Shown piece after piece: positions 193 through 18,012 of a stretch of 22,580 nt of DNA (position 1 is the stretch's first letter; each line of letters opens with the position of its first letter). The position numbers and the translations under genes are program-made. A model generated the notes under the pieces. The model saw nothing but the letters and a program-made list of their open reading frames with translations, had not been told where the DNA came from and did not search any database. The stretch is from IMG/VR virus record IMGVR_UViG_3300025769_000920, positions 1-22,580 of that record. One strand, given 5' to 3'. Source of the DNA: a virus.

Positions 193-310
193 GGGGGTGG
201 GGGTAAAAAGTTGCAATGGCGACTCGACAACATCACCCATACAAACATTATTTGCTCTCAAGGTTCGTTTGTGCATTGAGCGTGATAACGAGATGAGGGA
301 TAACTAAACT
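193..310 (+). other. Non-coding leader between terS-like gene and small-gene cluster
   Basis: These 118 bases hold no credible gene. They contain a G-rich tract (six Gs, T, five Gs) at 192-203 immediately after the TAG stop. GTTGCAAT occurs at 172-179 and again at 210-217, so it flanks the tract. The first promoter-like motif copy follows, then the leader of the next gene with AGGGA at 296-300 as a weak ribosome binding site. Packaging (pac or cos) sites of tailed phages often lie in or next to the small-terminase gene, so this is a natural place to look for one, but nothing here proves it. Confidence 0.5.
267..279 (+). promoter_or_regulatory. Promoter-like motif, copy 1 (variant)
   Basis: CGTTTGTGCATTG matches the motif ATTTGTGCGTTG with G instead of A at its first base and A instead of G at the ninth. 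It lies 31 bases ahead of the ATG at 311 that starts the small-gene/terminase block. The same motif occurs exactly in three other places ahead of gene blocks. Role as a promoter or operator is inferred from position only. Confidence 0.5.
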
Positions 311-613
311 ATGGCAACACCGGCATGGACACGTAAAGAAGGCAAGAACCCTGAGGGTGGGTTAAACGCAAAGGGTCGAGCTTCTTATAAACAAGGAACA
401 TTAAAGCCACCAGTTAAGAGTGGGGATAATCCTAGACGTGCTTCTTTCTTACAAAGGATGGGAGCAGCTAAAGGGCCTGAGAGAGATAGTAAAGGTAAAC
501 CTACTAGGTTATTATTATCATTAAAGGCTTGGGGTGCGAGTAGCAAAGCAGATGCTATTAAGAAAGGTCGTGCCATTTCAAGGAGAAATAAATCTAAAAA
601 GGAGAAAGCATAA
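311..613 (+). CDS. DUF6321-like small basic protein
   Basis: A 100-residue Lys/Arg-rich protein. The N-terminus PAWTRKEGKNPEGGLNAKGRASY, then a middle part with SFLQRMGAAKGP and SKGKPTRLLLSLKAWG, is the pattern I know from DUF6321, a family common next to the terminase genes of marine phages. No function is established for it as far as I know. No signal peptide or membrane segment is seen; the last 25 residues are almost all Lys, Arg, Ser and Ala. It is the first gene after the copy 1 motif and its TAA overlaps the next ATG (TAATG), so the two are probably co-translated. A nucleic-acid-binding role is plausible from charge only. Confidence 0.75.
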   Translation: MATPAWTRKEGKNPEGGLNAKGRASYKQGTLKPPVKSGDNPRRASFLQRMGAAKGPERDSKGKPTRLLLSLKAWGASSKADAIKKGRAISRRNKSKKEKA

Positions 614-741
614 TGCCTATGGGTAAAGGAACTTATGGTACTACTAAAGGAAGACCACCAAAGAAGAAGAGCATGCTAACTGGTAAGCAGAAGACATTAC
701 CACCTGCTTTACAGAAAAAAATTATGAAGAAGAAAAAGTAG
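613..741 (+). CDS. 42-residue basic protein with AT-hook-like GRPPKKK
   Basis: Starts at the ATG that shares its A with the preceding TAA and ends at TAG 739-741. The protein starts MPMGKGTYGTTKGRPPKKK and ends KKIMKKKK. GRPPKKK resembles the core of an AT-hook, a short peptide that lies in the DNA minor groove, although the usual PRGRP is not complete. Roughly a third of the residues are Lys or Arg. I know similar very short MGKGTYG...GRPPKKK proteins from marine phage genomes, always near structural or packaging genes, without an assigned function. The overlap, the close spacing to the next gene and the conserved form argue that it is real despite its length. Confidence 0.65.
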   Translation: MPMGKGTYGTTKGRPPKKKSMLTGKQKTLPPALQKKIMKKKK

Positions 742-750
742 GAGTTTATT

Positions 751-1020
751 ATGGTAGCAATGAAAGAAGCTATTGAAAAAAGAAAATCTCAAACTAAAAA
801 ATTAAGTTTATTGAATACTCCTTTAAGATCATTAAATGCCTATCTTGCTAACAAAAGAGCTACAAAGAAAGAAGCTGAAGACATAAATAAAATGATAATG
901 AAGGTTGATGATATGGAGCTTGATGGTTTAGAAAGAAAAAGAAAAGAAGAGTTAAGGTCTATTATGCTTAGAGTAAAAAGAAAAATGGCAATGGATAAAA
1001 GACAAGTAAATGGCAGTTAA
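751..1020 (+). CDS. Hypothetical Lys-rich helical protein
   Basis: An 89-residue protein preceded by AGGAG at 741-745, a good ribosome binding site. It is strongly charged and likely to be all alpha-helical: a first helix rich in Lys/Glu, LNTPLRSLNAYLANKRATKKEAEDINKMI in the middle, and a last helix with alternating Arg/Lys and Glu ending in KRKMAMDKRQVNGS. The pattern of hydrophobic residues would suit a short coiled coil. I do not recognise a family. Its 3' end overlaps the next gene by 11 bases in another frame, consistent with membership of the small-gene operon. Confidence 0.6.
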   Translation: MVAMKEAIEKRKSQTKKLSLLNTPLRSLNAYLANKRATKKEAEDINKMIMKVDDMELDGLERKRKEELRSIMLRVKRKMAMDKRQVNGS

Positions 1021-1177
1021 CGAAGCAGGCAACTATACTAAACCTACTATGAGGAAAGCTATCTTTCGCAGGATCAAAGCCAGTGGTAAGGGTGGTAAAC
1101 CCGGACAATGGTCTGCTCGTAAAGCACAGATGCTTGCCAAACAATACAAAGCTAAAGGGGGAGGTTATACTTCTTAA
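1010..1177 (+). CDS. DUF5872-like 55-residue protein (GGKPGQWSARKAQ motif)
   Basis: Starts at ATG 1010-1012 inside the end of the previous gene and ends with TAA 1175-1177, whose last base starts the next ATG. The protein contains YTKPTMRKAIFRRIKAS, then GGKPGQWSARKAQMLAKQYK, then GGGYTS. The GGxPGQWSARKAQ...YxxxGGGY signature matches small proteins annotated as DUF5872 and turns up in many phages and some bacterial and viral genomes. The function is unknown to me. Overlaps on both sides and the recognisable signature make it a real gene. Confidence 0.7.
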   Translation: MAVNEAGNYTKPTMRKAIFRRIKASGKGGKPGQWSARKAQMLAKQYKAKGGGYTS

Positions 1178-1437
1178 TGGCTTTATCTAAATCACAAAGG
1201 TCGCTCCGTGCATGGACAAAACAAAAGTGGAGAACGAAATCAGGTAAACCTAGTACACAAGGGTCAAAGGCAACCGGTGAACGTTATCTACCTGAGAAAG
1301 CAATTAAAGCTTTATCTTCCTCTGAATACGCAGCCTCTACGGCTCTTAAACGAAAAGCAATTAGAGCAGGTAAACAAGTATCTAAACAGCCCAAAAAGAT
1401 TGCAAGCAAAACGAGAAGTTATCGATCTTATTCATAG
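1177..1437 (+). CDS. Conserved small basic marine-phage protein
   Basis: An 86-residue, Lys/Arg/Ser-rich protein. The N-terminus LSKSQRSLRAWTKQKWRTKSGKPSTQ, the centre GERYLPEKAIKALSSSEYAA and the C-terminal SKQPKKIASKTRSYR are features I recognise from proteins lying directly upstream of terL in marine podoviruses; no function has been assigned that I know of. It overlaps the previous TAA by one base (TAATG), so translation is probably coupled. A different reading frame across the same bases (1208-1450) lacks both the overlap and the family resemblance and was left out. A role in DNA binding or packaging is only a guess from charge and location. Confidence 0.7.
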   Translation: MALSKSQRSLRAWTKQKWRTKSGKPSTQGSKATGERYLPEKAIKALSSSEYAASTALKRKAIRAGKQVSKQPKKIASKTRSYRSYS

Positions 1438-1446
1438 GATTACCAA

Positions 1447-1641
1447 ATGAGTTTTTTACATACTCTTAAGAAAGAAGAAAGAGATATACTTCGTGTAGTT
1501 GTTAAGAACGTACACTTCAAACATTACCCGGAACAGTTCTGCACAGATTATGAAGCAGACAAAATGATTGCAGCCATTGCACCTGAGGTGGTAGAAAAAC
1601 TAATGAAAGTTGGCAAGGATATGAAAGTTGACCAACTTTAA
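1447..1641 (+). CDS. Hypothetical 64-residue protein upstream of terL
   Basis: Unlike its neighbours this small protein is not strongly basic. It contains EERDILRVVVKNVHFKHYPEQ, CTDYEADKMIAAIAPEVVEKLMKVG. Similar 'KEERDxLxVVVxNVxFKHYP...CTDxEADKxI...PEVVEKLLK' proteins appear before the large terminase in marine phages I have seen, with no known role. Its end overlaps the terL start by 14 bases, so it is probably translated together with terL. The length, position and mainly helical form would also fit a small terminase-associated factor, but nothing in the sequence shows this. Confidence 0.65.
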   Translation: MSFLHTLKKEERDILRVVVKNVHFKHYPEQFCTDYEADKMIAAIAPEVVEKLMKVGKDMKVDQL

Positions 1642-3148
1642 ATACAAACCTGATGGTGAAGTTTGCAAAAATTTTATGAAGGATGATACCTTTTTTCGTG
1701 GTATTAGAGGGCCAGTAGGGTCAGGTAAATCAGTAGCTTGTTCTGTAGAAGTATTCAGAAGGGCGTTAATGCAGGAGAAATCACCGGATGGCAAAAGGAA
1801 AAGTCGTTGGGCTATCATCAGAAACACAAATCCTCAGCTTCGCACTACCACGATTAAGACTTGGTTGGACTGGTTTCCGGAAGAAGATTGGGGTAGGTTT
1901 TCTTGGTCAGTTCCATATACGCACAAGATATCCAAGAGTGACTTGGAGTTGGAAGTTATATTCCTTGCACTCGACAGACCTGAAGACGTAAAGAAACTTC
2001 TTTCATTAGAACTTACTGGCATATGGATTAATGAGGCTAGGGAAATACCCAAGTCAATTATTGATGCATGTACTATGCGTGTGGGTAGATATCCATCTAT
2101 GAGAGATGGAGGGCCAACATGGACTGGTGTGATTGCAGATACTAACGCACCTGAAGAAGATCACTGGTGGCCAATCATGGCAGGAGAAGTTCCTGTGCCT
2201 GATCATATAAGTTCTGAGGAATCTAGGATGCTAGTGAAACCTGATAACTGGAAGTTCTATACACAACCATCAGCTATGATAGAGGAAAAAGATAATGATG
2301 GATTGGTTTCAAAATATAATCCTAATCCGTTAGCTGAAAACAAAAAGAATATGATGCCAAGCTATTATCCTAACTTGATACAAGGTAAGACTAAGAGTTG
2401 GATAGATGTTTATGTAATGAATAGGCTTGGGCATATACAAGATGGTAAACCAGTATACAATATGTTTAGAGCCGATGTGCATGTTGCTAAAGAAGAAATA
2501 CCTGTCGCTGATGGTATGCCTTTATTTATTGGATTAGATTTTGGCTTAACCCCTGCAGCAGTCTTTGGTCAAAAGGTCAGAGGTCGTTGGCTTATATTAC
2601 AGGAGATAGTTGCCTTTGATATGGGCATAGTTAGATTTGCTGAGTTACTAAGAGCAGAGATAGCAACACGTTACGCTAACTGCGATGTAAATATATTTGG
2701 TGATCCGGCAGGAGACTTTAGGGCACAGACAGATGAGTCTACACCATTTCAAATATTGAGAGGTGCAGGACTTCAAGCTAGACCAACACATAGTAATGAT
2801 GTAGCGTTAAGACTGGAATCTGTGTCAGGTCCATTGCAACGTATGGTTGATGGTCAGTCAGGTGTGTTGATAGATTATAGATGTAAAGAATTGATTAAAG
2901 GTTTTGAAGGTGGCTATCACTATAGAAGAATGCAAGTATCAGGAGAAAGGTATGAGGACAAACCATCTAAGGATAGGTTCTCACATATACATGATGCATT
3001 GCAGTATCTTATGTTAGGGTCAGGAGAAGGCAGACAAGTGATGGGTCAGTTCAAAACTCTCAAAGCATTTAATGCTAGGAAAGAATTTGATGTATTTACA
3101 AGACAACCTAAACAACAAAGACGACAAGGTCTTTGGTCTAGGTTATAA
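1628..3148 (+). CDS. terL: Large terminase subunit (packaging ATPase and nuclease)
   Basis: The 506-residue protein pumps DNA into the prohead and cuts it. The N-terminal ATPase has a Walker A motif GPVGSGKS at residues 28-35 and a Walker B segment GIWINEA at 131-137, with E136 as the likely catalytic Glu. The C-terminal RNase H-like nuclease shows D304 in GLDFGLTP, D359 and D363 in FGDPAGD, and D456 in SHIHDAL, the usual acidic set. The start chosen is TTG at 1628: the residues it adds (FKYKPDGEVCKNFM) look like family sequence and AAGGA lies a few bases upstream at 1616-1620. The alternative is ATG at 1676 (residue 17), which would begin just before the Walker A strand. Overlaps the previous gene by 14 bases. 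Function is secure. Confidence 0.96.
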   Translation: MTNFKYKPDGEVCKNFMKDDTFFRGIRGPVGSGKSVACSVEVFRRALMQEKSPDGKRKSRWAIIRNTNPQLRTTTIKTWLDWFPEEDWGRFSWSVPYTHKISKSDLELEVIFLALDRPEDVKKLLSLELTGIWINEAREIPKSIIDACTMRVGRYPSMRDGGPTWTGVIADTNAPEEDHWWPIMAGEVPVPDHISSEESRMLVKPDNWKFYTQPSAMIEEKDNDGLVSKYNPNPLAENKKNMMPSYYPNLIQGKTKSWIDVYVMNRLGHIQDGKPVYNMFRADVHVAKEEIPVADGMPLFIGLDFGLTPAAVFGQKVRGRWLILQEIVAFDMGIVRFAELLRAEIATRYANCDVNIFGDPAGDFRAQTDESTPFQILRGAGLQARPTHSNDVALRLESVSGPLQRMVDGQSGVLIDYRCKELIKGFEGGYHYRRMQVSGERYEDKPSKDRFSHIHDALQYLMLGSGEGRQVMGQFKTLKAFNARKEFDVFTRQPKQQRRQGLWSRL

Positions 3149-3150
3149 CA

Positions 3151-3161
3151 TTTGTGCGTTG
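3151..3161 (+). promoter_or_regulatory. Promoter-like motif, copy 2
   Basis: TTTGTGCGTTG begins two bases after the terL stop, and with the preceding A it is an exact ATTTGTGCGTTG at 3150-3161. It lies in the 59-base gap ahead of the portal block, 46 bases from the next ATG. An AT-rich inverted repeat (TATTAA, T, TTAATA) follows at about 3165-3179. Same motif as at 267, 6365 and 17969. Confidence 0.6.
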
Positions 3162-3207
3162 TGTATTATTAATTTAATATGTATGCGTTAAAGAAAAGGA
3201 GATTCAT

Positions 3208-3423
3208 ATGTGTTTACCCGGTGGTGGATCAAGAACACCTGCACCCGATCCTGAATTAGAAAAAGAAAGAGAATCCGAAAAGGCTAAAGAGCAGGTTAAG
3301 ACTGCTGAAATGAAGCAAGAAGCTTTAGAAGAAACTGTTTCAAGAAGACGTAAAGGTACAGGTAGAAGATCATTGTTGTCTGGTTCAGGTGGTGGTGTAG
3401 GTTTTTATAACAGGTATTCATAA
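3208..3423 (+). CDS. Small head-module protein (MCLPGGGS...GGGVGFYNRYS)
   Basis: A 71-residue protein with a strong ribosome binding site AAGGAGA at 3196-3202. The N-terminus MCLPGGGSRTPAPDPELEKERE is followed by a charged helix (about residues 17-47) and a C-terminus RRKGTGRRSLLSGSGGGVGFYN. The same form, with Met-Cys-Leu-Pro at the start and a Gly-rich GFY end, is found between terL and portal in marine podoviruses. The location is comparable to small T7 head-assembly proteins, and a minor virion or assembly role is reasonable but unproved. The Cys at position 2 has no preceding signal peptide, so it is not a classic lipoprotein. The TAA overlaps the portal ATG (TAATG). Confidence 0.65.
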   Translation: MCLPGGGSRTPAPDPELEKERESEKAKEQVKTAEMKQEALEETVSRRRKGTGRRSLLSGSGGGVGFYNRYS

Positions 3424-4973
3424 TGCATGATATAGCTCAAAGCTACATGGCTAAATATGAAAAAGCCAAAACAATCAGACGTGAGTTTGAAGAACTCTAC
3501 GATGAAATCTTTGAGTATTGTTTACCACAAAGACAGGGGTTCAAGAACTATACCCCCGGTCAAAGACGTGATGATCGTATATTTGATGAGACTGCTGTAG
3601 TTGGTGTACAAGAATTTGCATCAAGATTGCAAGCAGGATTAGTTCCTAACTTTGCTAGATGGGCAGACTTTGTTGCCGGTGGAGAAGTTCCTGTTGAAGA
3701 AGCAGATGAGATTAACAATAAGCTAGATGAGGTTACGGAATATGTATTTGAAATATTACAGACATCTAACTTTGCACAAGAGATACATGAATGTTTTATA
3801 GACCTTGCTCTTGGTACTGCTGTACTTGCTGTTACTGAAGGTGATGCTGTAAACCCAATACGTTTTCATTCTATTCCATTGCCACATGTTGTGTTGGATA
3901 CAGGGCCTGATGGAAGAATTGATCATGTTTATAGGGAAAGAGATTTAAAGTTTAGTGACTTACCTATTGCATATCCAAGAGGTTCTTTTACTGAACAAAC
4001 ATTAGATAAGATACAAAAGTATCCTGATAGCAAATGCAAGATACTAGAAGTATCATGCAAGCTTTATGACAAACCAAATGAAGAACGCTATAGCTATATG
4101 GTTATAGAGATGGGTGACAAGAAGCTTATACTAAATGAAGAGTATAATGGCATAGGCTCTAATCCTTTTATTGCTTTTAGATGGAGCAAAGCAAGTGGTG
4201 AGGTTTATGGCAGAGGCCCTGCTGTTAATGCATTAAGTGCTATCAAGAGTGCTAACCTTACAATAGAGTTGGTGTTAGAGAATGCACAGATGGCAATATC
4301 AGGCATCTATCAAATGGATGATGATGGTGTTATTAACGTAGATACAATTAACTTAGTGCCGGGAACTGTAATTCCTAAAGCACCTAACTCACAAGGACTA
4401 CAGCCTATAAGGGCAGCAGGCAACTTTGATGTTGCTAACTTGGTTCTTAATGATATGAGAAATAATATTAAGCGTGCTTTGTATAATGATATGCTTGGTG
4501 ATCCTAACAAGACACCTGCTTCAGCAACTGAAGTTGCAGAACGTATGGCTGATCTATCAAGAAAGATAGGTTCAGCATTTGGTAGATTGCAGGCTGAGAT
4601 GGTACAGCCAGTATTACAGCGAGTAATATACTTGCTAACTAAGCAAGGCAGGATAGAAATACCAACTGTTAATGGCAGGCAAGTTAAGATTAAAAGCGTT
4701 TCCCCACTGGCACAAGCACAATCAAATCAAGACATTGTGTCTCTAGATAGATTCTTAGAAATGGTCGCAGGGCGTTTTGGTCCTGAGGTGATTAACCTCC
4801 TAGTCTCCTCAGAAGAAACAGCAATCTATCTAGCCAAGAAATTTGGTGTGCCAGACCAGTTGATCCGTGATGTTGGTGAGAGACAACGCATGGTACAGAT
4901 GGCACAACAGATGCAACAACAAACAGGAATAGACCCGAATGCAAACCCAAACATCCAAGCACTTGGGGGTTGA
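3423..4973 (+). CDS. Portal (head-tail connector) protein
   Basis: A 516-residue protein close in length to T7 gp8 (536). It forms the dodecameric ring at one head vertex through which DNA passes. The N-terminus has the typical helix and loop with ELYDEIFEYCLPQRQGF and LQAGLVPNFARWADF. The central part has RWSKASGEVYGRGPA (YGRGP at about 262-266), and the stem/crown part has TPASATEVAERM (SATEV at 367-371), both characteristic of the T7-type head-tail connector family. The C-terminus ends in a Gln/Met-rich tail (MVQMAQQMQQQTG), common in portals. It starts by TAATG coupling to the 71-residue gene, and the Bbp19-like gene starts inside its 3' end. The assignment is secure. Confidence 0.93.
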   Translation: MHDIAQSYMAKYEKAKTIRREFEELYDEIFEYCLPQRQGFKNYTPGQRRDDRIFDETAVVGVQEFASRLQAGLVPNFARWADFVAGGEVPVEEADEINNKLDEVTEYVFEILQTSNFAQEIHECFIDLALGTAVLAVTEGDAVNPIRFHSIPLPHVVLDTGPDGRIDHVYRERDLKFSDLPIAYPRGSFTEQTLDKIQKYPDSKCKILEVSCKLYDKPNEERYSYMVIEMGDKKLILNEEYNGIGSNPFIAFRWSKASGEVYGRGPAVNALSAIKSANLTIELVLENAQMAISGIYQMDDDGVINVDTINLVPGTVIPKAPNSQGLQPIRAAGNFDVANLVLNDMRNNIKRALYNDMLGDPNKTPASATEVAERMADLSRKIGSAFGRLQAEMVQPVLQRVIYLLTKQGRIEIPTVNGRQVKIKSVSPLAQAQSNQDIVSLDRFLEMVAGRFGPEVINLLVSSEETAIYLAKKFGVPDQLIRDVGERQRMVQMAQQMQQQTGIDPNANPNIQALGG

Positions 4974-5226
4974 TGGATACCCTCGCTCCAAAAACAATGA
5001 TGAAAAAATATCTTTAGATTTAGCCAGTACATTCAATACTCCCAGTGGACTGGCTACTTTACAATATCTTAAGTCTATAACAATAGAAGCTATAACAGGA
5101 GCTAATATAAGTTCTGAAGAGTTACGGCATCTTGAAGGACAAAGATATCTAGTGGCATTGATTGCCAAACGAGTTCAACATGCAGAGAGGATAAATCATG
5201 GAAGAAACATCAGCAACACCAAATGA
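4939..5226 (+). CDS. Bbp19-like phage protein
   Basis: A 95-residue protein. The core LASTFNTPSGLATLQYLKS (residues 28-46) and EELRHLEGQRYLVALIAKRV (61-80) fit the pattern of the Bbp19-type phage domain, in which 'F.tp.G...L..L' is followed by '..EGqR.vv..I'. These lie between portal and scaffold genes in many podoviruses; their exact role is not known to me. The ATG at 4939 overlaps the portal gene by 35 bases and has AGGA at 4925-4928; no better start exists before the conserved core. The end overlaps the scaffold gene by 29 bases. The first 25 residues may not be conserved because they are read in a second frame of the portal gene. Confidence 0.65.
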   Translation: MQTQTSKHLGVDGYPRSKNNDEKISLDLASTFNTPSGLATLQYLKSITIEAITGANISSEELRHLEGQRYLVALIAKRVQHAERINHGRNISNTK

Positions 5227-5923
5227 AACTACTGAAGCTCCAGTAGAACAAACTACGGAATCTGTTCAGGCTGAAAGACCTGAGTGGCTACCTGAAAAGT
5301 TTCAGACACCTGAAGACTTGCGTAAATCATATGACGAACTTTCAAGTAAGCTTGGTAAGGGTGAGGAAGAATTACGTGATAAACTATTACAGGAAATGGA
5401 AACAGAAGCATTTTCAAGTAGACCTGATGCAGTTGGTGATTATGTATTACCTGAAGTTATAGATGAGCAAGCTGCTGTAGATAATGAGTTGCTTGACTGG
5501 TGGTCTAACTATTCATGGGAAAATGGATTAAGCCAAGAAGAGTTTGCAGAAGGCATAGAGAAATATGCTACAGCTATTATGGGTCAGCAACCTGATCTTG
5601 AAGCTGTGCAAAAAGAACTTGGTGATAATGCTAATGAAAGAGTTGAGGCTGTTCAATTGTGGATGAATAAGTTCTTTCCTGATCCTGCAATGCAAGAAGC
5701 CGTTGCAGAACTAGGTGCAAGTTCAGCAGGCATTAAAGCTTTGGAGCATATTATAGAGCAAACAAAATCATCCAATGTAGCAGGTCAAGGAACAATTGCA
5801 GGCCAAGTTACCAAAGAAGATGTAGAAGCTAAGATGAAAGACCCAAGATACTGGCAACAGGGTAGACGTGATCCGGCATTCGTACAGGAGGTCAATAATG
5901 AATGGAAGCGTCTTTACGGGTGA
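5198..5923 (+). CDS. Capsid assembly scaffolding protein
   Basis: A 241-residue, very acidic, Glu/Gln-rich protein, mostly helical, with no Cys. It starts MEETSATPNETTEAPVEQ, carries RPEWLPEKFQTPEDLRKSYDELSSKLG (the 'P.WLPeKF.tpEdL.kaY.eL' motif at about residues 27-53 is typical of T7 gp9-like scaffolds), and ends with a basic-aromatic segment NEWKRLYG that could bind the capsid protein. It guides assembly of the prohead and leaves before DNA fills it. Placement between the portal and capsid genes is as in T7. AGAGGA at 5185-5190 is the ribosome binding site. The 3' end overlaps the next gene by 26 bases. Confidence 0.88.
   Translation: MEETSATPNETTEAPVEQTTESVQAERPEWLPEKFQTPEDLRKSYDELSSKLGKGEEELRDKLLQEMETEAFSSRPDAVGDYVLPEVIDEQAAVDNELLDWWSNYSWENGLSQEEFAEGIEKYATAIMGQQPDLEAVQKELGDNANERVEAVQLWMNKFFPDPAMQEAVAELGASSAGIKALEHIIEQTKSSNVAGQGTIAGQVTKEDVEAKMKDPRYWQQGRRDPAFVQEVNNEWKRLYG
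5886..5892 (+). promoter_or_regulatory. Strong Shine-Dalgarno deciding the start at 5898
   Basis: AGGAGGT lies five bases ahead of ATG 5898, inside the end of the scaffold gene. This favours ATG 5898 over the in-frame ATG at 5868, which has no such site and would lengthen the overlap. Confidence 0.75.
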
Positions 5924-6431
5924 AGGTGATTATGGCATTGCTGAAATAATTAAAAGCAGGCCAAGTCATGCAGAAAAGCTTCAACATAATTTAAGGGATA
6001 CTGATTTACGAGAATGTTTAATTGCAGGTGTGTCTCCGTGGCGAGCATTAATGCAATCATTACAAGTAGATACAGCAGAAACTTATACTGTTTTGTTAAA
6101 AGAAGAACCGGTTATGATGTTTGGTGTTGTGCCACAGCATGATTTGGTAGCAAGAATTTGGATGCTATGCAGTCCTGTAGTAGAGCAATATCCAAAAACA
6201 TTTGTCAAATTGTCACCATCTATTGTAGATTACTTTCAAAATAAATATTTTTTATTGGAAAACGTATGCCCAATAGATCATTACAAGACTTTAAGTTGGT
6301 TGGAATATCTTGGTTTTGGCTTTTTACCATCTGCTATTTCTAGTAATGGTTATCACGTTTTACGATTTGTGCGTTGTCAAAACCTTTATTATATGCAATC
6401 CCTTGAAGATACACGGCCTGTAATAAGCTGA
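5898..6431 (+). CDS. T7 gp13-like internal virion protein (DUF2833, GNAT-like)
   Basis: A 177-residue protein from the ATG supported by AGGAGGT. The middle part has EEPVMMFGVVPQHDLVARIWMLCSP and the C-terminal third has HYKTLSWLEYLGFGFLP. The order 'p.a.fGv....iWmL...(i)...y...F...s...(v)...y..L.N.v...h..tl.WLeylGF' is that of the gp13/DUF2833 family, which has an acetyltransferase-like (GNAT) fold. T7 gp13 is needed to make infectious particles. No catalytic activity can be claimed. In T7 this gene follows the tail-tube genes; here it lies between scaffold and capsid. The copy 3 promoter-like motif is inside its coding sequence near the end (encoding FVRCQ). Confidence 0.72.
   Translation: MNGSVFTGEGDYGIAEIIKSRPSHAEKLQHNLRDTDLRECLIAGVSPWRALMQSLQVDTAETYTVLLKEEPVMMFGVVPQHDLVARIWMLCSPVVEQYPKTFVKLSPSIVDYFQNKYFLLENVCPIDHYKTLSWLEYLGFGFLPSAISSNGYHVLRFVRCQNLYYMQSLEDTRPVIS
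6365..6376 (+). promoter_or_regulatory. Promoter-like motif, copy 3 (inside coding sequence)
   Basis: Exact ATTTGTGCGTTG within the last 70 bases of the gp13-like gene, 145 bases ahead of the capsid start codon. It would serve the capsid, tail and ejection block. Because it is also coding, one copy alone could be chance; the identity with the copies at 3150 and 17969 makes a site likely. Confidence 0.5.
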
Positions 6432-6521
6432 CAGCCCTAACGGATAACTGGATGAAGCCGAAAACAGACAACCGATAGCAACCTAAACAACAAACTGCAA
6501 TGAGCAGGGAAAGGACTAATA
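6432..6521 (+). other. 90-base leader of the capsid gene
   Basis: Non-coding. It ends with GGGAAAGGA at about 6507-6515 as the ribosome binding site, six bases from the ATG. GGATAACT at 6442-6449 also occurs in the leader at 298-305. There is no tRNA-like fold and no clear terminator. A long untranslated leader on the most highly expressed gene fits transcription starting upstream at the copy 3 motif. Confidence 0.45.
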
Positions 6522-7337
6522 ATGGCTAATACAATAGATCAAGCCTTTATTAAGCAGTTCGAGTCCGAGGTACATCTTGCATACCAAAGAATGGGTTCAA
6601 AGTTAATGAACACTGTTCGTAACGTAAGCAATGTTGCAGGAAGCGTAGTACGCTTTCAAAAAATCGGTACTGGTTCAGCTTCAACTAAATCAAGGAACGG
6701 TATGGTTACTCCGATGGAACTAGATCATACTAACGTAGAAGCAACACTAGCAGACTACTATGCTGCTGAGTACATAGATAAGTTAGACGAACTCAAGACA
6801 AACATTGATGAACGTCAAGCTATCGCTACTTCTGCTGCTGCTGCATTAGGCCGTAAGACAGATGAGATTCTTATTACAGCTATGGATGCAGGTGCTAACT
6901 CAACTCAGTTACATGATACTAGCAGTGCTGTAGAAAAAGCAGACTTGTTATCAGCTTTTGAAACATTTGGTTCTGCTAACTTACCTGAAGATGGTAATAG
7001 ATATATTGCTATGCATCCAAAAGGATTTGCTGACTTATTCTTAATCAATGAGTTTGCATCTTCTGATTATGTAGGCGATCAGAACTTACCATATGCAGGT
7101 GGCATGACAATGAAAGAGTTCTTAGGATTTAAGATTTTTTCAACTACTGCTGTAACTGCCGGTAAGAACATGGCATATCATACAACTGCTGTAGGACTTG
7201 GCATTGGTGCTAATGTAACTACTGAGTTAAATTATGTGCCTGAAAGAGTTTCACACTTAGCAACATCAATGATGTCCATGGGTGCTGTCGTTATTGACGA
7301 CAATGGTATCTATGAACTTCTCGATAACAATACATAG
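6522..7337 (+). CDS. Major capsid protein
   Basis: A 271-residue protein in the position of T7 gene 10, after scaffold and before the tail-tube genes. The N-terminus MANTIDQAFIKQFESEVHLAYQRMGSKLMNTVR is a long helix of the kind that starts capsid proteins of this marine podovirus group ('F...v..laqq..skL...V'). It continues with a beta-rich part, EYIDKLDELKTNIDERQ, AAAALGRKTDEILITAMD, a loop with RYIAMHPKGFADLF, and a C-terminal domain ending GAVVIDDNGIYELLDN. No Ig-like extension or cleavage signal is seen. An HK97 fold is expected from the family. Codons favour plain, frequent choices as in a highly expressed gene. The name is well supported by context and pattern. Confidence 0.88.
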   Translation: MANTIDQAFIKQFESEVHLAYQRMGSKLMNTVRNVSNVAGSVVRFQKIGTGSASTKSRNGMVTPMELDHTNVEATLADYYAAEYIDKLDELKTNIDERQAIATSAAAALGRKTDEILITAMDAGANSTQLHDTSSAVEKADLLSAFETFGSANLPEDGNRYIAMHPKGFADLFLINEFASSDYVGDQNLPYAGGMTMKEFLGFKIFSTTAVTAGKNMAYHTTAVGLGIGANVTTELNYVPERVSHLATSMMSMGAVVIDDNGIYELLDNNT

Positions 7338-7347
7338 GAGGTGAATC

Positions 7348-7611
7348 ATGGCTTATAGTGCAGCAAACCTAACAAGAATTGGTGGAGCATCTAATGGCGA
7401 TCTCTGGTTTTATACATCAGCAGATGCTATTGCTACTGTGAATACATCAGGTTATTTCAACGATGCAGCAAATATGCTTGCAGTTCGTGACTTAATTATT
7501 GTTGTAGATACAAATACACCAACAACAAACTTTGTTAATGTGTTATCAAATACTGGTACAGTGGTTGACGTTTCTGACGGAACTGTTGTAGTAGAAACTG
7601 ATGGCGACTAA
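7348..7611 (+). CDS. Probable head decoration or minor capsid protein
   Basis: An 87-residue protein with an excellent ribosome binding site, AGGAGGTGA at 7336-7344, ten bases after the capsid gene. It starts MAYSAANLTRIGGASNGDLWFYTSADAIATVNTSGYFNDAA and continues with beta-strand-like sequence RDLIIVVDT and NTGTVVDVSDGTVVVET. Small Gly/Thr/Val-rich proteins of this form with 'TvdtsGYFndaa' follow the capsid gene in many marine phages and are taken to be head decoration or head-fibre proteins. Nothing in the sequence proves incorporation into the virion. The strong initiation site suggests production at a high level, as expected of a decoration protein. Confidence 0.65.
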   Translation: MAYSAANLTRIGGASNGDLWFYTSADAIATVNTSGYFNDAANMLAVRDLIIVVDTNTPTTNFVNVLSNTGTVVDVSDGTVVVETDGD

Positions 7612-7617
7612 TAACTA

Positions 7618-10451: not shown

Positions 10452-10966
10452 GTTGGTGGATGGTAGCAGGTGCAGTTGTTAGTGCATATGGTGCAATGCA
10501 AGCAGGCAAGGCAAGAGCAGCAGAAGCTAGGGCACAAGCAGCACAGTTAGAAGAACAAAAGAAAGATGCCAAAGTTACTGCAATGCAGGAACATAATATA
10601 CGTATGCAAAACTTAAATGTAATGCTTGGTGTTAATGCATCATTGGCAGGTGTAATGGGTAGAGATGAAGACAGATCACTCGCAGCTATTAAACAAAAGA
10701 TATTAAAAGAAGCAACAACATTAGAAGATAGATCAAGATTGCAATATCTTACTGATCAAAGTCAACGTTCTATGTCTATACAAATAGCAGGCATGAGAGC
10801 AAGGAATGCTAGGAGAGCAGGTACGATATCAGCTATAAGCAGTTTATTAAGTGCAGGTAATCAGTACTCAAAAATATCAGGATCAGTTCCTACTGCATCA
10901 GTCACAGGCACTGGCCCTTTAAGATTTAATCCTAGTAGAATAAGTGGAAGTGGAATCTTTACATAA
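10448..10966 (+). CDS. Internal virion (ejection) protein, T7 gp14-like
   Basis: A 172-residue protein. The N-terminus SWWMVAGAVVSAYGAMQAGKARAAEARAQAAQLEEQ is a short hydrophobic Gly/Ala helix leading into a long amphipathic helix, the layout of gp14-type core proteins that insert in the outer membrane on DNA ejection. It continues with helices (EDRSLAAIKQKILKEATTLEDRS, IAGMRARNARRAGTISAISSLLSAG) and a flexible C-terminus. Identity with T7 gp14 is not obvious, so the call rests on form, length (T7 gp14 is 196) and being the first of three genes between nozzle and fibre. ATGA overlap upstream and TAATG overlap downstream. Confidence 0.72.
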   Translation: MSWWMVAGAVVSAYGAMQAGKARAAEARAQAAQLEEQKKDAKVTAMQEHNIRMQNLNVMLGVNASLAGVMGRDEDRSLAAIKQKILKEATTLEDRSRLQYLTDQSQRSMSIQIAGMRARNARRAGTISAISSLLSAGNQYSKISGSVPTASVTGTGPLRFNPSRISGSGIFT

Positions 10967-13900
10967 TGGTAGAATTTCTAAAAGCAAAACCTACATCTTT
11001 TGTTAATAGACCTAGAGGTATTATTGATACACGCACAGGCGAAAGTCAAGTATATGAACAGATAGCTAACCTTGGCGATCAAATGTCAAGGATGGGATTT
11101 GAGGATGCAGTAGTTGAGCAGGAAAAAATAGGTAAAGATTATGTTGCTTCACTGCAAACTAGAGACGAGCAAGGCAAGTTACAATTTGTAGCATTGCCTG
11201 AATCACTTAGTAAGGTTGCTAAAGATGCAGCTACACCACAACTAAGAAAAAGATATGCAAATGAATTACAGTTAGACACAAGTAATAAAATTTCTGAGTT
11301 ACATAGAACATATAAAGATGATCCTGTAAGCTTTGAGTTTCAATCTAATTTATATATTACTGAGACTGTTAATACCCTACGTGCAAATGGATATGCAGAA
11401 GTAGCAGGTGATTACGCAACAAATGCAGCAGGCTTAGTTGTACAGCATTCAAATGATTTAAAGCTTAAAGCTTTCAAGAAACAAGAAGAAGCGGCTAATG
11501 AAAAGCAAAGAGTTCTCATTGATAATCAAATACAAGATTCTTATGAAAATAGAATAGGTGGTAAATTTAAAGAAGCAGATGAAATGGACAAAGCTGTTCT
11601 TGCTTCATTAGATGACCTTATTGAAAGAGATGTTGTTAACGCACCATACTACAAAGAACAAAGAGCATTGGTTCTTAGAAATAAGAAACAAGCTATTATG
11701 GAATTACAGTTTCAAAATTTTAGTGCAGCACAAATGGCTGCATATAATAGAAGTCTTACATTAGGCAAAATATCTGGTCGTGATAAAGCTTTATTACCAA
11801 ATTTAACTGATCAACATTTTATAGATCAAAGAGAAGATATGAGGCCTGAGGATATTAGGCAACTTACAGCATGGGGTTCTACAACTAAAGGAAGATTTGC
11901 TGATGGTCTTACAGAAAAAAAGAAAACATATGAGATTGATAATACAGCAAAGCAATGGAACAGCAAAACACTATCAATAAAATCAACTAAAGTAAGTAAT
12001 GACTTAGATGCTGTTATTGGTAATGAATTAGGTCTTGGAAGGAAAGCGTCACCTAATGATATTCTAAATGCAACACAATCACAAACGCAAAAAATAATGG
12101 GAGGACAGAAAGGTAATGCATCTGTTCCTACATCTATCAAACAAGTTATAGGAAATCCATCTATAGCTATAACTAATATTAATAATAAATTAGAGCAAGG
12201 CAATCGAGAGGGTGCAGAATCATCTATTAATAATTTAATAAATGTAGCAAAAGTTTCTAGTGGCCTTATAGGTGTAGATAAAAAAGGAATCGGAAGAATA
12301 AAAAATATAGAAATAATGGCAAAGAAAGATGGAGATTTAGTCAAAGCTTTTAAACAGGTTTTTAGAACAGATGAGCAAGAAGAGATAGCACGTGCAAGAG
12401 TTAAAACAAAGATTCTTGAAAGCGACAATTCAATAACAGAAGACAATTATAATGCTACTGCCTTTATGAAGAAAAAACTTAAAGGTATGGATTTGGATTT
12501 AGATGCATCAGAAATGTTAGACATGTTACCAATTATGCGTTCCTCACTTGAAACTGAGGGAGCAGATATTGATGATGCCTTGGAACTAGTAGAAGAATAT
12601 TATGAGGCTGTATATAAAGCACATCCAAGTAACTACAATATAAATGAAAGAAAAACTGGAACACCTGATACTGGTGGTATTGTTTCTTACTATGGAGATA
12701 ACACAGACAAAGTAGTTGAGATTATTAATAATAAACTTAAAGCCGATTTACCTGATGATACTGAAACAAGTTTCTTTGGATTGTATACAACCAAGGTAGA
12801 TTATGAGCTTGGTGAAAATGCTTTCTTATTACCGGATAGATCAAATGGAAACAAAAATTCTGGAAGATGGACAGTCGTTGATGTTGATGGCAAGCCACTT
12901 ACTAACGAATTTGGTGTTATTGAAATAACAACACAGGACATAGAGCTATCATCAAATATTATTACACAGGAAGCTAAAGTAGCTATTGCTGAAGAAAGTA
13001 TAGGTAAGTTTTTTAATTGGTGGAATAACTTTAGTTTTGATACAGATATACGTATAGAAATGGGTGAAATAAAAGGAAGCAAGTCAGTTAATTTAGATGC
13101 ACCTGCACCACCAATTGATACCTTTGATGATACTACTAAGAAAAAACTTATGTCTTCTGATCTTTATGTTCAGCCTACTGGCCCTGAGATGCAAGAGAAT
13201 GTTGATATACAACCTGATGCTATGAGAAATATAAACGATGCAGTTGATCAAGCTATAGATACTGTAGATAGAACTGTAGTACAGCCAGTTATTGAAGGTG
13301 TGGAAACAGCGATTAACAAAGCAGGTAAGCTTAAAGATATAGCTGTTAATAATATTATTAGTATGTATAACAATATGAAAACTTATGGTGCTGAAATATT
13401 AAGAGATACACCTGAGTTTATAGAAATATCTCAGTTAGCAAATGGTCAGGTGATTGACGAACTTGTAAATAGTATTACAGCAAACAAACCAATCAACGCA
13501 CATGTAGGTGCTGTAGATCAATTAATAAAAGATGAAGATTTTAGCCCTGTACAATATCAAGATGGTGCAGGTAAATCTGTTGGATATGGTTTTGCTATTG
13601 CAGCTTTAGAAGATGATGAACGTGCTTTAATTAAGGATATAAATAATATTACAGAAAAAGAAGCAAAAGCAATTATAAATATTAAAGTTAGAAAGATAGC
13701 AACAAAGTTTGTTAGGGATGTTCCTAATTTTAATTCAATAGCAACAACGAGACAGATTGCATTGATCAACTTTGCATATCAACTTGGTTATGAAAATGTA
13801 ACGAATCAAGGCAAAGACCCTAACAAACAATGGCCTAAGTTTTTTGTTAGTTTAAAAGCTGCTGCAATTGCACCTGAAGGTTCAAAAGAAAGAGAGGAAC

Positions 13901-14025
13901 TGTTTGCCGAAGCAAGAAATAACATGGTGTATAACTACACATCTAAAGGTAAATTTTATACAGATTGGTTTAACCAAACTCCTAACAGGGCTAAACGAGT
14001 TGCACAAAGCATAAGAGGTTATTAA
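10966..14025 (+). CDS. Internal virion (ejection) protein with C-terminal T4-type lysozyme domain
   Basis: A 1019-residue protein in the place of T7 gp15. Residues 1-820 are largely helical and charged, with LGDQMSRMGFEDAVVEQEKIGKDYV near the start, and would form the core/ejection tube. Residues about 840-1019 are a GH24 lysozyme: E857 and D866 in KDEDFSPVQYQDGAGKS have the same nine-residue spacing as Glu11 and Asp20 of T4 lysozyme, ALINFAYQLGYENV matches the T4 core helix (ALINMVFQMGE), and the end NQTPNRAKRV (1003-1012) is the same as a C-terminal stretch of T4 lysozyme. The third T4 residue, Thr26, corresponds to S871 in a loop one residue shorter. The domain should open peptidoglycan during entry. 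TAATG overlaps at both ends. Confidence 0.85.
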   Translation: MVEFLKAKPTSFVNRPRGIIDTRTGESQVYEQIANLGDQMSRMGFEDAVVEQEKIGKDYVASLQTRDEQGKLQFVALPESLSKVAKDAATPQLRKRYANELQLDTSNKISELHRTYKDDPVSFEFQSNLYITETVNTLRANGYAEVAGDYATNAAGLVVQHSNDLKLKAFKKQEEAANEKQRVLIDNQIQDSYENRIGGKFKEADEMDKAVLASLDDLIERDVVNAPYYKEQRALVLRNKKQAIMELQFQNFSAAQMAAYNRSLTLGKISGRDKALLPNLTDQHFIDQREDMRPEDIRQLTAWGSTTKGRFADGLTEKKKTYEIDNTAKQWNSKTLSIKSTKVSNDLDAVIGNELGLGRKASPNDILNATQSQTQKIMGGQKGNASVPTSIKQVIGNPSIAITNINNKLEQGNREGAESSINNLINVAKVSSGLIGVDKKGIGRIKNIEIMAKKDGDLVKAFKQVFRTDEQEEIARARVKTKILESDNSITEDNYNATAFMKKKLKGMDLDLDASEMLDMLPIMRSSLETEGADIDDALELVEEYYEAVYKAHPSNYNINERKTGTPDTGGIVSYYGDNTDKVVEIINNKLKADLPDDTETSFFGLYTTKVDYELGENAFLLPDRSNGNKNSGRWTVVDVDGKPLTNEFGVIEITTQDIELSSNIITQEAKVAIAEESIGKFFNWWNNFSFDTDIRIEMGEIKGSKSVNLDAPAPPIDTFDDTTKKKLMSSDLYVQPTGPEMQENVDIQPDAMRNINDAVDQAIDTVDRTVVQPVIEGVETAINKAGKLKDIAVNNIISMYNNMKTYGAEILRDTPEFIEISQLANGQVIDELVNSITANKPINAHVGAVDQLIKDEDFSPVQYQDGAGKSVGYGFAIAALEDDERALIKDINNITEKEAKAIINIKVRKIATKFVRDVPNFNSIATTRQIALINFAYQLGYENVTNQGKDPNKQWPKFFVSLKAAAIAPEGSKEREELFAEARNNMVYNYTSKGKFYTDWFNQTPNRAKRVAQSIRGY

Positions 14026-17000
14026 TGTCTGAACTTTTTTACAGGTCATCTGATTACAAAAGTTTTACACCAAGAAAGTTTGCAAGACCAACACCAGTTT
14101 TTACAGAGTATCAAAAGCATGCAGATACAATAGAGCCATCATTTGGTGAAACATTTATGGGTCATCTTGGTTATCAATGGATGCCAGTTACAAACTTTAT
14201 ACAAGAGCAATTGACGTTTACTAATCAGGATGATGATCCTGATTTTAGATGGCAGGATCAAGAAGAAACAGAATTATATTATCAATATGTTGAAGAGCTT
14301 TCACGATCTAAGAATAGAGATCATTATGATTTTATAATGAGTAATATTGATCAAGGTATTAAACGTAGAGAAATCATGGATAGAGGTGGATTGTTTCCTG
14401 CACTAGTAGCAGGCTTTGCTGATCCACTTAACATTGCATTTGCTTTACCAGTTTTTAACGTAGGAATAAAAGCTGCTTGGGCAGCAGGCTCTGCTCTTGG
14501 TGTAGCTAAAGCAGGTGGTAAAGTTGGATTAGGTTTTGGTATAGCATCAGAAGCAATACGGGCACCATTCGATCCTTTGAATACTCCACACGAAGTAGCT
14601 ATGAACATAGGTGCATCTACACTTATGACTGCTTTACTAACTGGTGGAATGAAAGGTATAGCTAACACTTACTCTGGCATGAAGCTTAAGAAAATAAATG
14701 AAGAGATAGCTAAAGAAAAAAAAGGTGTGAAGCCTACAGAACCTGAGGTTGTTGATCCAACTACAGGTCAGCCTGAAATAAAACCTGAAGCCAAACCAAC
14801 AACTAAACCAACAGCAAAAATTAAATCATTATCAGAACTATCAGATGATGAAATTCAGTACAGGTTTGGAGAAGAGTTTAATGTAAAGAAAATAATAACT
14901 GATCCAAAAATAGTAGATAAGTATAAGCTTGACGTAGACAAGCCTAACATTTTAGGGAGGCATGTGTATTCTGATGAGGGTGGAACTGTATATGTGGATA
15001 TTGCTAGAACAAAAGATAAATTTAGAAGTCTTAAAGAAAAAGCAAAGAATAAAGAAAAAGGATTTGAAGAACTAGAACGTTTAAAAAATACAGGTTTATA
15101 TTCTGATATATCATATTATCAAAGTAGATTTATGTTTAATAACATTGATAGATTTACTGATGAAGATCAGTTTGTAGACTTTGTTTTATTTCACGAGATG
15201 ATGCATGGTAAATACAAACAAAAGCCAAATCAAACACTTAGAGCATATGAAGATGAAATAAATGTTAATGCTTTAGATAGATCACAATTTGAGAGAAACA
15301 AAATATCTCAGGATACAGGTGCATTAAAAGATACTGTGTATTCACGCATTGGAATTGTAAGTAAAATTATTCCGTCACGTATTATTAATGAAGCTAAAGA
15401 TTTAAATGTATCTATAAAAAATGACTACAATAAAATGTCACACAATGCATCTGTTGCTCTCGAAGGAAATCAATATGGCAGAGCAAGTCAATCTTTGTCA
15501 GCAAGGGCAAAACTCTATGGTGGTAGAGTATACGCATTACGTACAAGAATGCGTGAAAGATATATGAAACATATGAAGTCACGAGAAGGTACTGGTGAGT
15601 TTATTGGATTTGATGTAGCTTCAATGGCTGTAAAAGCTAATAGATATATGAGAGGTGACACAAGCAAAAAAACATTTGATGAATGGTTTGATGATTTGAT
15701 CTTGACTCATATTGATACTGGTAACCCTGATTGGCATGCAGCCAACTATCAATATTTACCGGAAATAATTAGAGCGTCGTTAGATGATCTTAATGGCATG
15801 TTTAGGGCTGTAGATGATTTAGCACGAGAGGTTGGTGAGTTAGGGGATGATGTAGGTATACGACAACAAATAAAAGATATTGCATTAGATGTAGAAAAAC
15901 GAACTCAAGAAATAACAAAGATAAAAGAAACAATTAAATCAATAGATGATAGAGCTAAAGAACGTATGTCTAGTAGCAGATCATCTACACCACAATACAC
16001 AGCAAAAGAAAAAAAGTTTAAAGATAACTTACAAGGCCAGTTAATGGTTGAAGAAAAGAGGGTTGCTGATGCTGCACTTAATACAACTTGGTTAAGAGGT
16101 GTCTTAGATTCACCAACAAGAAAGAACTATAAATTTCCTATTTACTATGACAAAGCTTTATTACTTTCTAGTCCTGATAAAAGAGAAGAACTTACACAGG
16201 TTTTTGCTAAACATTTTTTAGAAGAAGATACTTATAAAAGATGGGAAGGCGATAAGTGGATTGATGTACAGATTGCAGGTAAAGCAGAAAAAGCTAGAGA
16301 AGAAGCTGAAAAGGTTGTTAATAAAATACTAGAAATAGGTGATAACTTGCATGAAACAGGATCAATAGGTCCGGGCAAGGGCAAGCACTTAATGATTCGT
16401 GCAACAAATATACCTGAGTGGAAAGTCAAAGACTTTATCATAAGAGATGAGCGTGTACTAGAAAACTATATGGAAAAGATGGGCTTTCGTATTGAATGGG
16501 CAAGAGCATTTGGTAGAGAAAACATAGAAGAAATGTTAGACAGGCACGATATAATTATGAAAGCTGATGGTCTTTCTGAAAAAAGACGTGCTGAATTTAG
16601 AACAAACTTTCTTGCTGACTATGAACGTGAAGCAGGACAAATGATTAGGTCACCTGATAGGTGGGATAACAAATACTCAAGGGTAACTAAAAAGGTTGCA
16701 GGTATGACTTATCTTACTGGTGCAGGAGTAACATCTATAATTGAAACAGTAGCTATGCCAATCTTTGAGCATGGATATGGCAGGGTATTTAGGACTGCTG
16801 TGCAAGCTGTTGATGGTAACTGGTCTAATATTAAAGCTAACGTAAAGAATCTTATGTACGTTAATGAGGGTATGGAGTTAGCAAAGTCTATAGCACAAAG
16901 AATATTTTTAACAGACACAACTAAAAACTTACAGCCGGGCAAGTTAGAGCGTTCTGTTGAAATGATGGAAAAGGGTTTTTATATTGGCAATGGCTTATCT

Positions 17001-17969
17001 ATTATTACAAAGATAGGTAAGATGGTTGATATGGCTGTGCGTATACCTAAGTTTTTTGAGCAAATACAATCAATAAAAAATAATAGTGCATCTGCATTCG
17101 ATATAGAAGAGCTTGGTCGTTATGGTATAACACCTGATGTGGCTAGAAGATTATCTAATATGCCTTGGGAAAAAACAGAAACAGGTATGCCTGTATTAAA
17201 TTTAGCAGAATGGCCAGAAGCTACAGCATTAGACAGAGAACTCAAAAGAACTATGATGACTTATCTTGCATCTGCATCACGCAATACTATTATGCATGCC
17301 ACTGCATTTGATAGACCAATGATCATGGATGGTTTTGTTTATGTTAAATACAAGCCGTGGATGAGAAAGCTTGGTATACAAGTTGATGAAAGAGCAAGTA
17401 TTAAAGTTGGAAATAAGATTACATATCCTATGGCACGTATAGAGTCTGGTGTTATGGCATTTCCATTTCAGTTCTATAACTTTGCATTTGCAGCAACAAA
17501 TAGGATTGCAGCATCTATGCTTGATCCTGCAAGACAACATAGAATGGCAGGTATGTCTGCATTGTTAGGCATGAGTTATATAACATTACTTATCAAGAAA
17601 CCTGATTGGTGGTTTGAAAATAGAGATGCACCTGAGTTAATGATGCGTAGCTTTGAAATGTCAGGTATTACAGGAGTGTATTCAGATATTGCATACATGG
17701 CATTACATTCTGCGATTGCTACTGGTTTGCATAATCCTGATGATTCATGGCTTAAGGGTAAATACAAGCCAACAGTCGGTGATCAGTTTGCAGACTTTGC
17801 AGGTGCAACACCGGGCATGATGCGTGAGTGGGTGCTTGGTGCCCACGAATTGTTAACTGATCAAACTCCGGAAGGTTTAAAAAGATTGTCTTATAACCTA
17901 CCGATAATAGGTTTAACACCATTTGCTGAAGATATGAGAGAGCTAGGCAGGAGTATAACAAGGCAATGA
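14025..17969 (+). CDS. Large internal virion (ejection) protein, gp16-like, with HExxH metallopeptidase-like motif
   Basis: A 1314-residue protein in the place of T7 gp16, the largest gene here. Residues 123-177 are hydrophobic/Gly-Ala-rich (LFPALVAGFADPLNIAFALP onward) and 1174-1190 (MAGMSALLGMSYITLLI) could cross a membrane, as expected for a protein entering the host envelope. A Lys/Pro/Thr/Glu linker (about 225-265) leads to a domain with FVLFHEMMHGK; H390, E391 and H394 form a HExxH zinc site and YEDEINVNAL (408-417) offers a third ligand, probably E409 or else E411. Similar HExxH...YEN.iN..AL segments occur in large marine-phage proteins, as I recall. Residues about 620-690 look like coiled coil. 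No transglycosylase domain is evident. It is the last gene of the ejection block and is followed by the copy 4 motif. Confidence 0.82.
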   Translation: MSELFYRSSDYKSFTPRKFARPTPVFTEYQKHADTIEPSFGETFMGHLGYQWMPVTNFIQEQLTFTNQDDDPDFRWQDQEETELYYQYVEELSRSKNRDHYDFIMSNIDQGIKRREIMDRGGLFPALVAGFADPLNIAFALPVFNVGIKAAWAAGSALGVAKAGGKVGLGFGIASEAIRAPFDPLNTPHEVAMNIGASTLMTALLTGGMKGIANTYSGMKLKKINEEIAKEKKGVKPTEPEVVDPTTGQPEIKPEAKPTTKPTAKIKSLSELSDDEIQYRFGEEFNVKKIITDPKIVDKYKLDVDKPNILGRHVYSDEGGTVYVDIARTKDKFRSLKEKAKNKEKGFEELERLKNTGLYSDISYYQSRFMFNNIDRFTDEDQFVDFVLFHEMMHGKYKQKPNQTLRAYEDEINVNALDRSQFERNKISQDTGALKDTVYSRIGIVSKIIPSRIINEAKDLNVSIKNDYNKMSHNASVALEGNQYGRASQSLSARAKLYGGRVYALRTRMRERYMKHMKSREGTGEFIGFDVASMAVKANRYMRGDTSKKTFDEWFDDLILTHIDTGNPDWHAANYQYLPEIIRASLDDLNGMFRAVDDLAREVGELGDDVGIRQQIKDIALDVEKRTQEITKIKETIKSIDDRAKERMSSSRSSTPQYTAKEKKFKDNLQGQLMVEEKRVADAALNTTWLRGVLDSPTRKNYKFPIYYDKALLLSSPDKREELTQVFAKHFLEEDTYKRWEGDKWIDVQIAGKAEKAREEAEKVVNKILEIGDNLHETGSIGPGKGKHLMIRATNIPEWKVKDFIIRDERVLENYMEKMGFRIEWARAFGRENIEEMLDRHDIIMKADGLSEKRRAEFRTNFLADYEREAGQMIRSPDRWDNKYSRVTKKVAGMTYLTGAGVTSIIETVAMPIFEHGYGRVFRTAVQAVDGNWSNIKANVKNLMYVNEGMELAKSIAQRIFLTDTTKNLQPGKLERSVEMMEKGFYIGNGLSIITKIGKMVDMAVRIPKFFEQIQSIKNNSASAFDIEELGRYGITPDVARRLSNMPWEKTETGMPVLNLAEWPEATALDRELKRTMMTYLASASRNTIMHATAFDRPMIMDGFVYVKYKPWMRKLGIQVDERASIKVGNKITYPMARIESGVMAFPFQFYNFAFAATNRIAASMLDPARQHRMAGMSALLGMSYITLLIKKPDWWFENRDAPELMMRSFEMSGITGVYSDIAYMALHSAIATGLHNPDDSWLKGKYKPTVGDQFADFAGATPGMMREWVLGAHELLTDQTPEGLKRLSYNLPIIGLTPFAEDMRELGRSITRQ

Positions 17970-17980
17970 TTTGTGCGTTG
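17969..17980 (+). promoter_or_regulatory. Promoter-like motif, copy 4
   Basis: Exact ATTTGTGCGTTG starting at the last base of the TGA stop of the ejection gene, in the 43-base gap ahead of the fibre gene. The following bases (GCACAC) allow a small hairpin TGTGC-GTT-GCACA that the other copies do not share, so the conserved primary sequence rather than a fold is the likely signal. Confidence 0.6.
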
Positions 17981-18012
17981 CACACAACTACAACAACAAA
18001 TAAGGTGCGAAT

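Follow-up and report, generated by a model that had tools for sequence, protein, structure and literature searches.

We investigated what a 12-base word repeated ahead of late-gene blocks in a viral DNA might signal and, if it belongs to promoters, which RNA polymerase would read it. The stretch analysed (hereafter the window) is a 22,580-base IMG/VR viral record from a podovirus-like phage and contains late genes only, encoding terL, portal, scaffold, a gp13-like protein, capsid, tail, ejection proteins and fibres. The genes that matter most below, all on the + strand, are terL, the large terminase (1628-3148; phrog_2, E 1.2e-20; 67% identity to Pelagibacter phage Hodr), the gp13-like internal virion protein gene (5868-6431; phrog_308, E 1.7e-24), the major capsid gene (6522-7337; Pfam Phage_capsid_2, E 1.2e-61) and a tail fibre gene (18013-20730; phrog_21412, E 3.7e-82). 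Megablast of the window against isolated phages gave no match, and relatives were therefore taken from metagenomic contigs, with 80 loci fetched by the capsid protein. The genomes of Azospirillum, Micavibrio and other Alphaproteobacteria contain capsid relatives with 45-53% identity (L348-L427), probably in prophages; the closest relatives (76-83%) come from metagenome bins, where their contigs may be strays.

The repeated word and its four sites in the window

The word, ATTTGTGCGTTG, occurs exactly at 3150-3161, 6365-6376 and 17969-17980, always on the + strand, which is the late strand. A first-order Markov model of the window predicts 0.0011 copies on the + strand and 0.0016 on the - strand, and only two other 12-mers are found three times in the window; the claim of the initial annotation that three exact copies lie far above chance (~0.003 expected on both strands) is borne out. 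When up to three mismatches were allowed there was no excess in the window (20 found; 23.7 expected), so the signal rests on near-exact copies. One variant, GTTTGTGCATTG, lies on the late strand at 267-278, one base earlier than the 268-279 initially given. The earlier statements that all copies are on the coding strand and that the next start codon follows within 60 bases for three of them, and after 145 bases for the capsid copy, proved correct. The copy at 6365, previously assigned to a gap, is inside the gp13-like gene, and the first A of the copy at 17969 is the final base of the preceding stop codon. An Rfam search of the window returned nothing near any copy.

We propose that the 12-base word would be the upstream half of late promoters for host RNA polymerase carrying the housekeeping sigma factor. 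The predicted layout is a TTTGTGCG box followed by TTGnnn-N17/18 and a TA-rich -10, with TGnTTAkGn at sites in the gap after terL. The box would lie at about -44 to -37 and abut the -35 hexamer on its upstream side. The word closes with the TTG of this hexamer, so that its last three bases would open a sigma70 -35 box, a perfect one at terS.

Four sites in the window, all on the + strand, can be read in this way. Predicted late promoter B (267-304), ahead of a 100-aa gene with its ATG at 311, consists of the box TTTGTGCA (268-275), the -35 TTGAGC (276-281), a 17-bp spacer and a -10-like GATAAC (299-304), and the same site is present in relatives L002, L003 and L013. Predicted late promoter C (3150-3187), between the terL stop (3148) and the gene at 3208, has the box TTTGTGCG (3151-3158), the -35 TTGTGT (3159-3164) and a -10-like TATGCG (3182-3187), and it has counterparts in many terL gaps of relatives. 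Candidate late promoter D (6365-6402) falls towards the 3' end of the gp13-like gene and 145 bp before the capsid gene, with the box at 6366-6373, TTGTCA at 6374-6379 and a poor -10, AATCCC, at 6397-6402. Predicted late promoter E (17969-18006), ahead of the fibre gene with its ATG at 18013 and matched by the fibre sites of relatives, combines the box TTTGTGCG (17970-17977), the -35 TTGCAC (17978-17983) and a -10-like TAAGGT (18001-18006) that overlaps the Shine-Dalgarno sequence. The sigma70 core is weaker at B, C and E and poor at D.

Conservation at late-gene junctions

The putative late-promoter class is conserved among several hundred relatives. Comparison of gaps in related phages, the check proposed at the outset, revealed the word at orthologous junctions: it immediately follows the terL stop, recurs within the gp13-like gene and precedes both the fibre gene and the gene that comes next to terS on its downstream side. 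Across 46 genomes or fragments, window included, the regular expression [AT][AT]TGTG[AC][AG]TTG matched 124 late-strand sites (17 expected) versus 7 on the other strand (13 expected), although relatedness among the genomes inflates every motif count. A box variant, TTGTGAGTTG, is common to separate sites of the L059/L060/L063 clade.

About 44 of the 76 distinct terL gaps bear the word, a few of these matches being spurious and lying within the start of the next gene. The remaining terL junctions are mostly gapless, the ribosome-binding site following the stop without a break; L283, L289, L239 and L250 have a wordless, AT-rich gap. In a column profile of 45 terL-gap sites, G stands at -14 in 32, followed by TTA at -12 to -10. 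The enrichment of this G, two bases before the -10 hexamer, has a binomial probability of 9e-15, a value that ignores the relatedness of the sites and is therefore overstated. By place and sequence, the G and the TTA would form an extended -10 at 17 bases.

The word-to-start distance is about 41-75 bases after terL, 43-57 at the fibre gene and 142-157 at the capsid gene. At the fibre gene, we applied the regular expression to the 28 motif-bearing genomes or fragments in which a fibre start had been detected and found a motif-to-ATG distance of 43 in 14 of them, 44 in one and 55-57 in five; eight had no matching site, and some of these have a degenerate one (e.g. L038 and L073). The -10-like TARGGT at these sites is not independent evidence for a promoter, because it overlaps the Shine-Dalgarno sequence and because a comparable TAGGGT precedes the fibre gene of L062, a relative that has no motif. 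The predicted transcript start falls on the A of the AUG at B and at most matched fibre sites, the latter through their distance of 43; that these sites would need a leaderless message counts against the proposed promoters. A leaderless fibre mRNA, with a -10-like hexamer overlapping the ribosome-binding site, is speculative.

Copy D is read in frame as TTT-GTG-CGT-TGT, encoding F-V-R-C in a conserved peptide of the gp13-like protein, and its conservation is therefore partly at the protein level. This raises the possibility that copy D alone is not a promoter but a conserved FVRC peptide written in favoured codons, with capsid mRNA supplied by upstream promoters. Its poor -10 in the window would fit such an account, as would the retention of FVRC or FxRC and of the CGT codon at this place in motif-free relatives. 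The valine codon speaks the other way: all 17 distinct motif-bearing relatives that have valine there encode it by GTG, a codon used for 11% of the valines in the window, whereas most motif-free relatives have GTT, GTA or other residues. Three motif-free relatives do have GTG, and in one of them, L059, the TTGTGAGTTG variant is present but escaped the pattern. These relatives share ancestry, yet the codon usage argues for constraint on the DNA of copy D besides that on the peptide, and we regard the protein-only account as rather unlikely.

The capsid-gene leader also contains a hairpin, CAG-CCC-UAAC-GG-AUAA-CUG, at window positions 6432-6450, right after the gp13 stop. The form searched for was present in 40 of 41 relatives, and its arms were complementary over at least 3 bp in 40/40, with about nine different stem sequences; with shuffled partners, a mean of 16 (maximum 24) of 40 paired. 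This hairpin is also present in motif-free phages and had no Rfam hit. RNAalifold on the capsid leader returned no pairs, and the count of paired arms did show pairing.

The predicted terS promoter and a candidate activator

The key site belongs to terS, with which the late genes begin, and is not part of the window. Upstream of this gene, relatives have TTTGTGC(G/A)TTGACA, separated by 17-18 bases from nATAAA, after which come seven G in a row. Scanning for TTGTGCGTTGACA followed by G7, which demands the box and cannot prove it but leaves the -10 free, gave 92 contigs with 33 distinct sites, and a terS match lay 55-107 bp downstream wherever the contig includes terS. At the unselected -10, two columns have A in 24/33 and 25/33 sites. 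Sigma70 geometry (-35 TTGACA, a TATAAT-like -10, 17 +/- 1 bp) was found at the 33 distinct box-bearing terS promoters and in box-free relatives. A second scan demanded TTGACA and two G7 runs, not the box; among the matches listed, the same core occurred with TTTGTGCG-type boxes or, in other lineages, with other boxes abutting TTGACA. Box-free relatives keep the core as well (TTGACA-N17-TATACT in Hodr; TTGACA-N17-CATAAA in L064). Core and box are therefore separable, the same promoter carrying other boxes in some phages and none in Hodr and L064.

In L215, L225, L230, L237, L275, L283 and L289, among the matches listed, a GTGACG/CGTCAC-like palindrome replaces TTTGTGCG and abuts TTGACA upstream of terS, pointing to a possible different regulator at the same promoter. 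Lineages with such a palindromic box keep ATTGTGCGTTGC after terL. A rule of one box per phage at all sites is thus not general, and one phage can mix boxes. In much of the family (e.g. L104-L195) the terS promoter is followed directly by a pair of G-runs, each of about seven bases and separated by a few bases; the window likewise has G-runs after its terS stop, at about 193-206.

Same-junction conservation, the bias towards one strand, the fusion to a perfect TTGACA at terS and a -10-like element spaced at 17/18 bp all support the suggestion of the initial annotation that the word is a promoter element ahead of gene blocks. We consider the word-bearing sites very probably to be sigma70-type promoters, and we infer both this sigma70 use and the transcript starts from the DNA sequence. 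The core is strong at terS (TTGACA, nATAAA) and weak inside the late operon (TTGnnn, with TATGnn or TAGGnT).

When gene content was compared between motif-bearing and motif-free genomes, an XRE/HTH_3 protein of ~85 residues encoded on the early strand stood out. Among genomes of at least 30 kb, it is present in 21/21 motif-bearing and 1/6 motif-free ones (Fisher 7e-5, uncorrected for the many families compared before this protein was singled out, and with a motif-free set that is small and selected by motif absence). G047, whose only match to the regular expression is at a gene start, was placed in the motif-free set. The sole motif-free genome of this size with the protein is Hodr, in which the recognition helix is changed, and L064, a 27-kb motif-free fragment, has a diverged copy; the helix is otherwise almost invariant. 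Contigs fetched by the XRE protein alone are a more independent test than the Fisher comparison: where at least 5 kb was available on the late side, the motif was there, on the late strand, in 27/28. The co-occurrence of motif and gene is partly shared ancestry. The XRE gene is outside the window and present in the record of close relative L002. Its product matches HTH_3, with a weak PHROG match to a CII-like regulator, and its predicted fold (pLDDT 83) is nearest HipB and restriction-modification (R-M) controller proteins (top E 1.2e-3), a match that supports the predicted fold class and no more. One clade (L446-L450 and L452) has an extra late-strand TTTGTGAGTTG in the early region; the XRE gene match starts 943 bases away from it.

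Late promoters of this family thus appear to be read by the host polymerase helped by a small phage DNA-binding protein. In the mechanism that we propose, the early operon on the opposite strand would be transcribed first from ordinary promoters, allowing the XRE protein to accumulate. It would then bind TTTGTGCG beside the -35, the 8-bp box serving as a half-site for an activator that touches sigma region 4, and would aid the host polymerase both at terS and at the internal promoters with their weaker cores, so that the terS, post-terS, portal/scaffold, capsid and fibre blocks are turned on. On the strength of sequence comparison, we think it likely that this explanation, with host polymerase, housekeeping sigma and a box read by the XRE protein, is right as a whole; taken by itself, the assignment of the XRE protein as the activator of the late promoters is one that we favour on balance.

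The box could instead be an operator, bound by a repressor that keeps the late promoters off, or by a host transcription factor rather than a phage activator. Its position, overlapping the RNA polymerase footprint, would suit repression, XRE proteins are often repressors, and the terS core is already strong with its TTGACA. The weak internal cores, however, would need help rather than repression, and a host factor would not explain why the XRE gene tracks the motif, which together make an operator improbable. From the box position and the weak internal cores we infer activation rather than repression, and the gene's distribution suggests the identity of the factor. The initial annotation had offered a host-factor promoter element or operator as alternatives, and these come closer to the evidence than the phage polymerase promoter that it preferred.

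The polymerase and comparison with known systems

An RNA-level signal, either a processing site or a leader structure in late mRNA, would account for motifs near start codons and for the local inverted repeats in some gaps; a common structure was sought and rejected at the terL gap (none in 45 sites, median z -0.33), the word-to-start distance varies and the terS site is a promoter by its geometry, so we regard such a signal as very improbable. A promoter for a phage single-subunit RNA polymerase, with the 12-mer as recognition sequence and a start a few bases downstream, would fit a short motif repeated ahead of late blocks at spacings that would mostly leave an ordinary 5' UTR, but we set it aside as scarcely credible given that RNA_pol (PF00940) was absent from the 60 family records searched (25 + 35, many of them fragments; T7 control found at 1e-109), that the box runs into a TTGACA whose distance from the -10 is that of sigma70 promoters and that the core persists without the box. 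The records searched include five with exact terminal repeats of 23-127 bases, apparently closed genomes of ~33 kb.

As no phage RNA_pol was found, the host polymerase is the simplest reader. A pelagiphage without an RNA polymerase is stated to depend on that of its host (PMC10504331), and this remark on host polymerase reliance was all that we found in the literature on regulation in such phages. The papers listed in a search for the word's sequence were unrelated, as judged by title.

Taken further, these observations might describe a modular late-promoter code in a widespread marine phage family, in which one sigma70 core at terS carries exchangeable boxes abutting the -35 (TTTGTGCG or the GTGACG/CGTCAC palindrome), TTTGTGCG is a single half-site read by one XRE protein beside sigma region 4 and the fibre mRNA is leaderless in many members; we put this full version forward tentatively, with rather more doubt than belief. 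The proposed late promoters would offer a readable code for small marine phages of a large and mostly uncultured group, whose searched records revealed no RNA polymerase gene, and the XRE protein is a testable candidate for the early-to-late switch. Different boxes on the same core in related phages offer a natural series for the exchange of promoter-activator pairs.

T7-type promoters are read by a phage-encoded single-subunit RNA polymerase, for which the 60 records gave no PF00940 match. Lambda CII is an XRE-like HTH activator of phage promoters at -35 and recognises TTGC-N6-TTGC repeats. The family XRE protein, with its weak CII-like PHROG match, is comparable as a candidate HTH activator at -35; repeats of the CII type flanking the -35 are absent from the terS and terL-gap column profiles. 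The MotA box of T4 middle promoters lies near -30 and replaces the -35, unlike the box described here, which is upstream of a retained -35 TTG. The likeness to T4, whose middle promoters and sigma appropriation are the subject of PMC6755090 and PMC2988021, would lie in an early phage protein and a short box that together turn the host RNA polymerase towards a later class of genes.

The proposed scheme can also be compared with late operons that begin at terS. In phages of Gram-positive bacteria, small activators of the RinA/ArpU/LtrC type turn on such operons. RinA is termed a phage transcription activator (PMC9867676). The present case differs from these in that several internal promoters share the box, the candidate is an XRE-type protein and the phages are marine.

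Class II sigma70 promoters, such as those of R-M controller proteins and of lambda CI at PRM, provide another comparison. The conserved site here differs in being a single 8-bp half-site, no second half-site being conserved upstream of the box in the column profiles, and activation here is predicted. As in class II promoters, the conserved site abuts the -35, with TTTGTGCG directly upstream of TTG in late-strand sites, and the proposed activator would be an XRE-type protein working with the host polymerase.
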